From positions 1-46,166 of the forward strand of contig VHCZ01000019.1 in the NCBI GenBank assembly GCA_016871535.1: 46,166 nucleotides of DNA, given 5' to 3'. Below, piece after piece: positions 3,674 through 46,166 of the stretch (its first letter is position 1; each line of letters starts with the position of its first letter). The notes under the pieces are model-generated. The model was given only the letters and a program-made list of their open reading frames with translations, had not been told where the DNA came from and did not search any database. The position numbers and the translations under genes were made by a program. This stretch comes from Verrucomicrobiota bacterium. GTDB taxonomy: Bacteria; Verrucomicrobiota; Verrucomicrobiia; Limisphaerales; SIBE01.

Positions 3674-3714
3674 GAATTCGGCATGTGTCAACTCAGTTAC
3701 TGCTTGGTCCGCGG

Positions 3715-3910
3715 GATGGACGACAAAGCTCGTAGCGCAGAGTTGCACTCTGCCCTATCGCAGAATTGTATTCTGCGGGGCGTCTCCCAGTCCGAGCACG
3801 CTGGGACTTGCCGGCGAGCTGCCGATTGGAAATCGGCGATACAGCAGATTGAAAATCTGCGCTGCGGTTCTCCGGTCGATCTGTCGTCAATCCCACGGTC
3901 TGCACAGTAA
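3715..3910 (+). repeat. Four-hairpin intergenic repeat, copy A
   Basis: A 196-bp element made of four short palindromes in a row, with stems gcagag/ctctgc, cagaat/attctg, gccgat/atcggc and gcagat/atctgc. It is present again, inverted and about 97% identical, at 45971-46166, and in shortened form with altered stems at 5829-5973. It carries a spurious open frame starting MDDKARSAEL that is also conserved in the inverted copy only because the DNA is conserved. It lies in the 3674-4195 gap, which otherwise holds the repeat at 4013 and no gene. Confidence 0.9.
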
Positions 3911-4012
3911 GGTGGGGCGAGGCCGGGCGAGGCCCCCGCCGAGCCAATGCCATCGAAGAAAAGCTCCGCGGGAGCGTCGTTCCACCGTCGTTATCATAAC
4001 TGAGGGGACACC

Positions 4013-4120
4013 CACGGCTGATTCAAGAATCTCGCGAAAGGAGCGCGGGCAGCCGGCCCGCCCGCCTCTCTCGAAATCTTCACGCAACCCGCGCGGGCAA
4101 GCTGACCGCGCTCCTTCTTG
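4013..4120 (+). repeat. Palindromic repeat sharing cacggctgattcaagaatct, copy 1
   Basis: The element starts with cacggctgattcaagaatct and forms a long imperfect hairpin (ggagcgcgggcagc near 4040 pairing with gctgaccgcgctcc near 4110). A second copy with an internal deletion is at 8496-8580, where the shared first bases include the stop codon of the ABC permease gene. Here the repeat reaches the first possible start codon (4118) of the next gene, so that upstream start probably lies on repeat DNA. Confidence 0.75.
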
Positions 4121-4195
4121 CATCCTCCGTCAGATTCCCCTACCGTGCGCCCAGAACCACCAAAAGTGCGATTTTCAACCATTGACCTGCCACCC

Positions 4196-5740
4196 ATGCC
4201 GTTGCGCGTTCACCGTCCTTCTCTTGAAAAGGCGATACGACGGGGTTCCCTCGCGTCCCATTTGTTGACTGCGCTCGGCCAGTTCTCGGCACTTCTTCTC
4301 ATCCTGGGCTGCCTCCTCGCCACTTCCGTTCCGCTTCTTGGCGCGGAGGAGCTTTCCAATCACGCCATCACGTTGAATCTCCTGGAGAGCCGGAGAAAAC
4401 AGCAAGTCGCCGCCGCCCAGAAATATCAGGCGTTCCACGGTTTCAAGTTCACCGATCGAATCTCGGAAAGCGGGATCACTTTTGCCGACCAGATCGTGGA
4501 CGACGCTGGCAAAGAATACAAAGCCGCCCATTACGATCATGGAAACGGCCTGGCGGTCGCCGACGTGGATGGCGATGGTATGGTGGACATCTATTTCACG
4601 ACACAATTGGGCGCCAACCAGCTTTGGCGGAACCTGGGAGGCGGCAAATTCCAGGACGTCTCGAAGGAGATGAATCTGCGCGACGGCAGTTGGAGCGGCG
4701 ACGCCACATTTGCCGATCTGAACCAGGACCGATTCCCCGACCTCTACGTGGTGAACATGCAAGGGGACAATCATTACTACGAAAACCAGGGCGACAAAGG
4801 CTTCATCGACAAGACGGCGGCCTATTTCCCGAAGACCCCCTGGGGCGCAATGGGCGTGAAGTTCTTCGACTTCAATCAGGACGGCCTGATGGACGTTTAC
4901 ATCACCGACATGCACTCCGATATGACCAAAGGCCAAACCGTCGAGGCGCTCAATTTTCGGATCGAGATGGAGAAAACCAAGAGCGAGGCCTTCTGCTCCG
5001 TCCAGTGGACCGAGGCCTATCTGCAAGGCTCCACGAACAACATCTTTGGCAACGCCTTCTACCAAAACCTGGGCGGCGGGAAGTTCGCCGAGGTTTCCGA
5101 CCGGCTGGGCGTCGAAACGTACTGGCCTTGGGGCGTGAGCGTCGGCGACTTGAACGCCGATGGCTTCGAGGACATCTTCGTGGCCTCCGGCATGGGCTAT
5201 CCCTTTCGCTATGGCATCAACCCCGTGCTCATGAACGAAGGCGGGAAAGGGTTCTTCGGCAGCGAGTTTTTGGTCGGCGTGGAACCGCGCGGCGACCGGC
5301 GGACGGAGAAACCCTGGTTCACGCTGGACTGCGATGGCGCGGACAAACAGCACCCGGAATGCGCCGGCAAATCTGGCAAGACCGTCATCACCGGCACGTT
5401 GAGCACACGCTCTTCAGCTTTCTTCGACCTCGACAACGACGGCGATCTGGACGTCGTCACCAACGAATTCAACGACCGCCCCCAACTGCTCGTCAGCAAT
5501 CTGACCGAGGCCAAGCGCGTTCGCTCGCTCAAGATCAAGCTCAAGGGCGTCCGATCCAACCGCGACGGATTGGGGGCGACCGTGATCGTCCGCGCCGGCG
5601 GCAAACGGTTGACGCAGTTCCACGACGGGAAATCGGGTTACCTGTCGCAAAGCTCGATGCCGCTCTACTTCGGCCTGGGAGAGGCAACGGGCGTGGAGTC
5701 CGTGGAAGTCTTGTGGCCTTCGGGAAAAAACAGACGGTGA
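4196..5740 (+). CDS. FG-GAP/ASPIC-UnbV (CRTAC1-like) secreted protein, frame broken near C-terminus
   Basis: A hydrophobic leader at about residues 22-45 ending near LLGAEE suggests export. It is followed by FG-GAP/VCBS-type calcium-binding repeats (VADVDGDGMVDIYF, FADLNQDRFPDLYV, FFDFNQDGLMDVYI, VGDLNADGFEDIFV, FFDLDNDGDLDVV) and a C-terminal ASPIC/UnbV domain (RSNRDGLGATVIV, GYLSQSS, LYFGLGEA, VEVLWPSG). Family members are predicted extracellular beta-propeller proteins of unknown role. The frame stops at 5740 just after WPSGK, while the expected ending QTVTKDIPIDRTLIITEPAE is encoded in the -1 frame up to a TGA at 5791-5793. The six-A run at 5725-5730 is where the frame is lost; seven A would restore it. 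An alternative start at 4118 adds 26 residues, mainly from repeat DNA, so 4196 is preferred. Confidence 0.85.
   Translation: MPLRVHRPSLEKAIRRGSLASHLLTALGQFSALLLILGCLLATSVPLLGAEELSNHAITLNLLESRRKQQVAAAQKYQAFHGFKFTDRISESGITFADQIVDDAGKEYKAAHYDHGNGLAVADVDGDGMVDIYFTTQLGANQLWRNLGGGKFQDVSKEMNLRDGSWSGDATFADLNQDRFPDLYVVNMQGDNHYYENQGDKGFIDKTAAYFPKTPWGAMGVKFFDFNQDGLMDVYITDMHSDMTKGQTVEALNFRIEMEKTKSEAFCSVQWTEAYLQGSTNNIFGNAFYQNLGGGKFAEVSDRLGVETYWPWGVSVGDLNADGFEDIFVASGMGYPFRYGINPVLMNEGGKGFFGSEFLVGVEPRGDRRTEKPWFTLDCDGADKQHPECAGKSGKTVITGTLSTRSSAFFDLDNDGDLDVVTNEFNDRPQLLVSNLTEAKRVRSLKIKLKGVRSNRDGLGATVIVRAGGKRLTQFHDGKSGYLSQSSMPLYFGLGEATGVESVEVLWPSGKNRR
5725..5731 (+). other. A AAA AAC slippery heptamer at the frame break
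   Basis: In the zero frame the codons are GGA AAA AAC, a canonical -1 frameshift heptamer. A -1 slip gives exactly the frame that encodes the conserved C-terminal end of the ASPIC domain. A one-base homopolymer indel, natural or from sequencing, explains it equally well. Confidence 0.45.
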
Positions 5741-5828
5741 CAAAGGACATCCCGATAGATCGCACCCTGATCATCACGGAGCCCGCTGAATGAGGCGAGG
5801 AGGACCGCAGGGCAGAATTCTTCGTCTC

Positions 5829-5973
5829 GTAGCGCAGATTTGTAATAATTTGTAATCTGCCGTATCGCGGAATTGCATTCCGCAGGGGCTGGACAAGTTC
5901 CAGGGGCTCTGGAACTCGCCGAAGCGCCGCCGATTGCAAATCGGCGATACGGCAGACTTCAAGTCTGCGCTAC
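5829..5973 (+). repeat. Four-hairpin intergenic repeat, variant copy C
   Basis: It begins GTAGCGCAGA and ends TCTGCGCTAC, so the ends pair with each other. The inner hairpins keep the layout of the 3715 copy but with changed stems: cggaat/attccg instead of cagaat/attctg, and gcagac/gtctgc instead of gcagat/atctgc, that is, compensating pairs. It occupies most of the 5794-6116 gap; no gene is seen there. Confidence 0.8.
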
Positions 5974-6116
5974 CAAGAATTCTGACCGGCGCTCGGCGGC
6001 GACCTGCGGCTGAGAATTATTTTGCGGCGGATGGGCCAGCGCGGATACTTTTCCGCCGTGCACACCGTAACTCATCGCAAGACAGTCGCGCTGTCCGCAA
6101 ACGAAGGAAAATGCTT

Positions 6117-28606: not shown

Positions 28607-28681
28607 GGCCGAGTGCAGGTCCGAAAGGAACAGGACACCTCTCAGGAACCGGGTAGGGACGGATTCCACTCCGTCCCGAAT

Positions 28682-45970: not shown

Positions 45971-46166
45971 TTACTGTGCAGACCGTGGGATTGACGACAG
46001 ATCGACCGGAGAACCGTAGCGCAGATTTTCAATCTGCGGTATCGCCGATTTCCAATCGGCAGGGCGCCGGCAAGTCCCAGCGTGCTCGGACTGGGAGACG
46101 CCCCGCAGAATACAATTCTGCGATACGGCAGAGTGCAACTCTGCGCTACGAGCTTTGTCGTCCATC
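45971..46166 (-). repeat. Four-hairpin intergenic repeat, copy B (inverted)
   Basis: The reverse complement of 3715-3910 with about five differences in 196 bp. It runs to the window edge and may continue. Between 45916 and 45970 there are ttaaatcgttaatcgttaaatcg tandem words and no gene. Confidence 0.92.

Follow-up and report, generated by a model that had tools for sequence, protein, structure and literature searches.

The four-hairpin repeats in the window, by which we mean the whole analysed stretch of 46,166 nucleotides from a draft genome of the Limisphaerales, are very probably copies of a GTAG-tagged REP dimer of the REPIN/RAYT kind, which is apparently an orphan in its present genus, has been kept paired as a DNA hairpin through copying and is now carried as cargo by MITEs. 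We read the repeat as mobile DNA and not as a new RNA gene, since a matching transposase, a Y1 gene with REPs on both sides, was found in four relatives and since one copy in the window lies inside a small transposon with terminal inverted repeats. On these two grounds the contrast drawn in the original prediction, that the hairpins resemble a structured RNA or a protein-binding array more than a decayed transposon, is not supported.

Architecture of the repeat

The REP dimer core of copy 1 covers 134 bp on the forward strand (3732-3865) and runs from GTAG to CTGC, a changed form of CTAC. Its left half (3732-3778, forward strand) consists of GTAG, hairpin 1, a CTATCG linker and hairpin 2, and its right half (3819-3865, reverse strand) is arranged in inverted orientation as hairpin 3, a CGATA linker and hairpin 4. 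The core of copy 2 (5829-5973, forward strand) keeps all four hairpins in the same order, as had been proposed, so that both copies read as GTAG-hairpin-TATCG-hairpin, a spacer and the mirror image ending in CTAC. The copy that had been placed at 3715 is real, but that start falls within a larger element at 3700-3907. The 47-nt unit, GTAGCGCAGANTTNNANTCTGCNGTATCGCNGANTTNNANTCNGC, has GTAG outermost and is paired in inverted orientation, with the unpaired GTAG adjoining the palindromic body as in other GTAG-tagged REPs.

The replacement of the middle spacer was also borne out. The spacer of copy 1 (3779-3818, forward strand) contains, on direct reading, the inverted repeat TCCCAG/CTGGGA, and the different spacer of copy 2 has an inverted repeat of its own, GTTCCAG/CTGGAAC. 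The predicted paired changes of CAGAAT/ATTCTG to CGGAAT/ATTCCG in hairpin 2 and of GCAGAT/ATCTGC to GCAGAC/GTCTGC in hairpin 4 are both present, and hairpin 1 shows a further paired change from G-C to T-A along with a 10-nt duplication in the loop of copy 2, while the stem of hairpin 3 is the same in the two copies. When folded as single-stranded DNA, the two cores reached z-scores of -4.9 and -8.8 against dinucleotide shuffles, and the predicted minimum fold is a long hairpin enclosing local hairpins, not four free ones.

None of the ends of types A-D described below was recognised around the core of copy 2, and a search for its empty site resolved none. A short inverted repeat brackets this core (CAGAATTCTT at 5813-5822 and AAGAATTCTG at 5975-5984, spanning 5813-5984 on the forward strand). 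A third copy, on the reverse strand, is a family A element (45974-46166) with its REP core at 46016-46149, and the contig terminates at 46166 within this copy (46016-46166).

We rejected a long hairpin with co-evolving arms, because the two arms of one copy resemble each other less than arms taken from different copies do. Arm likeness within a copy was 0.788 versus 0.838 after shuffling for 40 dimers of the own genome, and 0.778 versus 0.791 for 74 dimers of other genomes. No dimer was identical at all three variable pairs, neither among the 40 nor among the 74, for which 3.1 identical dimers were expected from the pooled arms. Descent from an asymmetric founder accounts for part of this unlikeness, and the pattern argues against selection for one long hairpin.

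Abundance and genomic context

The repeat is abundant in its own genome, a draft of 6.67 Mb in 460 contigs with a completeness of 96.84. A search with the first 30 nt of the unit, allowing at most two mismatches, returned 193 and 211 half-units (404), and the reversed pattern returned none. A sample of 40 stretches of 20 kb (800 kb), picked independently of the repeat, contained 59 half-units and 27 raw half-pairs, with no matches to the reversed sequence. The dimers are head-to-head and of nearly fixed length, 132-135 bp in 98 of 104 distinct paired elements.

Beyond this genome, the unit was present in 17 of the 58 genomes searched (the own genome and 57 relatives), with 159 and 386 matches in two other genomes of the genus, 189 in one genome from another genus of the family and 0-90 in the remaining genomes. 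Among the matches listed, which cover at least 120 stretches of named genomes, all are Verrucomicrobia by title, with the names Pedosphaera, Limisphaerales, "subdivision 3" and one Akkermansia.

The genomic context was surveyed for 20 dimers from the sample and the window with a simple in-house gene caller, sub-hits being discarded by hand; copy 2 of the window is absent from the survey because of its insertion. Fourteen dimers are located between co-directional genes and three between divergent genes, two are at contig ends and one is within a called ORF. Thus, 19 of the 20 lie outside called genes if the two at contig ends are counted, and the repeat combines the high copy number, dispersal and mostly intergenic location of GTAG-tagged REPs.

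Covariation and the maintenance of pairing

Half-units for the covariation analysis were gathered by the letters GTAGC and GTATC and filtered loosely by requiring 4 or more of the 7 pairs of hairpin 1, a threshold that 29 of 574 raw matches do not reach; hairpin 2 was left unfiltered. When the 1081 column pairs are ranked by covariation in 324 distinct halves, the first five (11-17, 34-40, 31-43, 33-41 and 10-18) are all stem pairs, and the identical five lead when the 206 halves from other genomes are taken alone. For the 123 halves of the own genome, stem pairs take the first three ranks but not the fourth. A diverged subset of 80 halves differing in at least five places, out of 92 so chosen, had 92.7% paired cells versus 79.1% after shuffling and 20-46% in slid controls, a covariation score of 0.356 versus 0.112 after shuffling, and two-sided changes at 12 of 14 stem pairs. 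The covariation test that accompanied the original prediction was therefore passed, and both sets support its claim that pairing is kept while the sequence varies.

The covariation result does not specifically indicate RNA. Of 4536 stem cells, 4269 are Watson-Crick pairs, 60 are G-T, 46 are A-C and 161 are other mismatches, so that there is no marked G-U excess. We consider it very unlikely that the hairpins are selected in transcripts, be it as a stabiliser of mRNA ends, an attenuator or a small RNA. The strong covariation of the stems speaks for such a role, as does the mostly intergenic location with 14 of 20 dimers between co-directional genes. Against it stand the near symmetry of the element, the similar numbers of G-T and A-C cells, the RAYT partner in relatives, the lack of any match to an Rfam family in the window at gathering scores, and the observation that none of the 17 dimers with both neighbours known is placed between convergent genes, where about two would be expected. 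The one-sided stem changes in recent copies, described next, weigh against an RNA as well.

Recent copies change in another manner than lineages do. The comparison drew on 54 equal-length family A copies that were located through their ends, with two polymorphic sites excluded. Their stems had 25 changes in 3024 sites, as against 69 in 4104 for the remaining core, so that stems change half as often as other core sites (Fisher p 0.0016), although copies from one burst are not independent and the lower rate in stems could reflect the mutation rate. All 25 stem changes are one-sided and none is two-sided, from which it follows that inserted copies lose pairing freely and that there is no sign of each copy being maintained at its site. 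Lineages, unlike inserted copies, show compensated stem changes. The original prediction had left two options, that the hairpins are themselves under selection or are exchanged as modules; the recent copies give no sign of the first as maintenance of individual copies, and the second is supported by the chimeras described below and by the occurrence of one core between several kinds of ends. On the simplest reading, selection or templated correction would keep the stems paired while the element is being copied as DNA.

Paired changes can also be produced by quasipalindrome correction, that is, by template switching inside hairpins, which would need no selection. The shift of pair states by transversion with few mismatched intermediates is in line with this process, as is the lower frequency of changes in stems than elsewhere in the core, but the 25 stem changes in recent family A copies are without exception uncorrected one-sided mismatches, and we regard template switching without selection as an improbable source of the pattern.

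As a separate observation, eight family A elements (L085, L284, L285, L302, L303, L366, L368 and L378) are exactly 23 bp shorter, which corresponds to one step of a hairpin plus linker.

A RAYT-type transposase in relatives

Y1 transposase genes with the REP on both sides, the flanking halves being scored at no more than three mismatches, were identified in four relatives (G003:C13, G013:C176, G024:C16 and G034:C87). The four group together as a single clade (support 89/89) when 26 Y1 rows are placed in a tree, and because Y1 genes of a single clade are flanked by the REP, we assign the repeat to the REPIN/RAYT kind, in which a cognate RAYT has its own REP on either side. Dimers of the 134-bp length both precede and follow the gene in G003, and in G003 and G024 alike the Y1 stop codon falls within the GTAG of the REP downstream. 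The other 22 Y1 rows had no REP half with fewer than seven mismatches within 900 bp, and one of them, G002:C412, had a half with seven.

The cognate clade was not found in the three genomes of the window's genus (G000, G001 and G002), all of which are drafts and one of which (G001) is 67% complete. In the draft of the own genome (G000), 13 Y1 loci yielded no cognate RAYT and none of 6 matches from the clade search belongs to it, and present movement by a RAYT is therefore not shown there. Likewise, no cognate RAYT match was obtained in G025 and G016, which have the repeat and are 89% and 57% complete. The REP thus looks orphaned in the window's genus.

One Y1 gene of the own genome, at C165, belongs to a sister clade of seven rows (support 100/99), in which it accounts for two rows. 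Its ORF shares 55% identity with the cognate RAYT found in G003 and, on direct reading, the gene is flanked by a different GTAG dimer of similar build, GTAGAGCAGGCTTTCCAGCCTGC... It is conceivable, though we lean against it, that REP dimers in the own genome are still moved in trans, either by this sister-clade RAYT or by a cognate gene that is missing from the draft. The identity of the two proteins and the different two-hairpin dimer beside the gene are consistent with the former and the fragmentation into 460 contigs at a completeness of 96.84 with the latter; the lack of any REP1 half within 900 bp of the C165 gene is a point against movement by that gene. The third GTAG two-hairpin dimer (GTAGAGCAGGCTTTCCAGCCTGC..., L435 at G000:C165) was also seen to flank a broken RAYT copy.

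Family A, a TA-flanked MITE

Copy 1 lies inside a MITE-like element of 208 bp (3700-3907, forward strand) with imperfect inverted ends of about 26 bp, CTGCTTGGTCCGCGGGATGGACGACA and TGTCGTCAATCCCACGGTCTGCACAG. With the flanking TA on each side (3698-3699 and 3908-3909), the insertion extends over 3698-3909 on the forward strand. Family A elements with both ends called number 54; 40 of them measure exactly 208 bp and 49 have TA on both sides. Empty sites were searched for by joining the flanks of these 49 elements with one TA and asking, across all DNA analysed, for matches that span the junction by at least 10 nt per side. Such matches were obtained for 11 of the 49; five of them (L061, L065, L264, L294 and L299) are ungapped at 90% identity or more and represent other copies of the target repeats over 41-56 nt, and the others are weaker. 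The terminal inverted repeats insert together with the interior, and the TA duplication is accompanied by empty sites, as in TA-type MITEs. For copy 1 itself, a site in G002 matches up to the right edge but over only 6 nt on the left.

The family has expanded in the own genome. We counted 96 right ends with a 23-nt end pattern at no more than two mismatches (control 0), and a 17-nt pattern at no more than one mismatch gave 194 ends in the own genome versus 0-4 in each of 19 relatives. Out of 95 distinct right ends, one of which stops at a contig end, 94 are readable and 92 of these have the REP core beside them; L362, one of the two exceptions, has a core with small deletions. An element that lacks the core has these same first 20 bp at its ends, of which the genome holds 39. 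The TA flanks, the empty sites, the ends and the sharing of these ends with a core-less element together indicate that family A is moved by a transposase acting on the outer ends and that the dimer is cargo.

Short elements with terminal inverted repeats, no gene and TA on either flank, which occur as bursts of near-identical copies, are known as TA-duplicating MITEs of the IS630/Tc1-mariner type. Family A resembles them in all of these features, and differs in carrying a REP dimer and in that its transposase was not found. No autonomous partner was seen in the stretches examined. We discarded a DDE_3 gene as the transposase, because the single match had no family A ends at up to seven mismatches, and likewise a pair of facing ends about 1.8 kb apart, which encloses an ORF that, on our reading, may encode an aldo/keto reductase.

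Some related elements were seen along the way. In the core-less MITE (L393, L400 and others), the facing ends are about 265-270 bp apart with no REP core between them. An element at L384:1894-2125 is bounded by related ends, TACTGAGAGGACCGC ... GGACTGCACAGTGA, and contains CCCTCTCC/GGAGAGGG in its interior. Next to copy 1 in the window (3908-4020) lies an interspersed repeat, AAGGTGGGGCGAGGC ... CCACCGTCGTT ... ACTGAGGGG, and several family A elements are inserted into copies of this repeat.

Other ends and chimeric elements

The same core was found between other kinds of ends. Ends C (RGTGCATCCACAAGTT) are associated with a 9-bp target duplication: in four core-bearing elements, 9, 9, 8 and 8 of the 9 target letters match, and 0.1% of control pairs reach 8 or more. 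For ends B (GTATSTGTTTAGCG), with a target duplication of about 8 bp, 10 of 29 listed pairs adjoin a GTAG hairpin core by reading, and at least 7 of 8 target letters match in six of these 10 (control 0.9%). The core in four of the six is the REP core of the window, and the remaining two have other GTAG cores. Ends B and D are also found away from the window's core: of 17 matches to ends B in the sample, 4 were near it, with 9 matches in the reversed control, and for ends D the numbers were 2 of 18 and 4. We did not retain ends D as a separate class, since only one of three duplications was convincing, nor the scoring of all inverted flanks as one class, by which 9 of 41 non-A elements were above the 95% control.

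Another GTAG-tagged REP family, GTAGGGACGGATTCCACTCCGTCCC, is present in the window at 28653-28680, with 63 raw matches in the sample and the window and none in the reversed control; one copy lies within ends B and has an 8-bp duplication (L014:466-660).

Six chimeras (L070, L249, L364, L367, L375 and L379) join a family A end to other ends or spacers through the core. They rest on a draft assembly and might be artefacts of its fragmentation, given that some of the 460 contigs, including that of the window, end within copies; the six have different partners, and we think an artefactual origin unlikely. We tentatively suggest, with the matter nearly in balance, that the orphaned REP has changed its vehicle: its own transposase would be lost from the genus, and the dimer would persist as an exchangeable hairpin cargo of several unrelated MITEs with TA, 8-bp and 9-bp duplications, one of which, that with ends B, carries different GTAG cores. 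A heterodimer rule, seen in the lack of dimers identical at all three variable pairs, would hold the two arms apart in sequence while every hairpin remains paired. If true, this would imply a modular economy of hairpin cassettes among the non-autonomous DNA of the Limisphaerales, in which selection favours short hairpins and opposes long palindromes.

Comparison with known systems and implications

An earlier survey described GTAG-tagged REPs in head-to-head dimers, with the verrucomicrobium O. terrae among the hosts (Di Nocera et al., 2013; PMC3733652). As portrayed in the available portions of that survey, they share with the repeat studied here the unpaired GTAG, the stem-loop body and stem subfamilies with complementary changes, as well as GTAG-outward dimers, many of them heterodimers, an intergenic location, high copy numbers and REP-flanked RAYT genes (REPtrons). 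The present unit differs from those portrayed there in consisting of two hairpins joined by TATCG and, unlike for the REPtrons, no cognate RAYT was found in the window's genus; the comparison with the O. terrae families is one of descriptions, not of sequences. The same survey reports REP dimers of A. variabilis and H. neapolitanus that are embedded in long palindromes (PMC3733652). The central position of a dimer within inverted flanks is similar, whereas one core is found here in at least three kinds of ends that differ in the length of their duplications, and the family A element moves in one piece and has empty sites.

The inverted pair of GTAG-tagged REPs and the flanked RAYT gene in relatives also agree with REPIN and TnpA-REP systems, as far as these are outlined in the parts available of two papers (PMC3116915, PMC8266576). 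In the latter, TnpA-REP binds and cuts single-stranded GTAG hairpins and E. coli REPs need a bulge; the two-hairpin unit with perfect stems is unlike these E. coli REPs (PMC8266576). Our literature searches for REP dimers nested in MITEs or with target site duplications, and for repetitive palindromic elements of Pedosphaera, returned nothing relevant, and a search for REPIN/RAYT systems in Verrucomicrobia returned PMC3733652 alone. What is known is thus the GTAG REP dimer with its RAYT, and what is new is a two-hairpin unit that is apparently orphaned in a genus and carried by several MITE families.

A plausible course of events is that the cognate RAYT would recognise the hairpins as single-stranded DNA, a behaviour published for other REPs, and that they may also matter as cruciforms. 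Copies with intact hairpins would seed new copies, and inserted copies would decay freely. In the window's genus, where the REP seems orphaned, the recent burst of family A was probably the work of a transposase that duplicates TA and acted in trans on the outer inverted repeats.

Our findings trace an RNA-like covariation signal to mobile DNA with a transposase partner, which is a warning for the discovery of RNAs by covariation only. Within the order, some genomes hold the RAYT and others have hundreds of copies but no RAYT that was found, and near-identical recent copies are available as well. Such material allows us to ask whether a transposase, templated repair or a host function keeps the hairpins of REPs, and how REP dimers turn into the cargo of MITEs.
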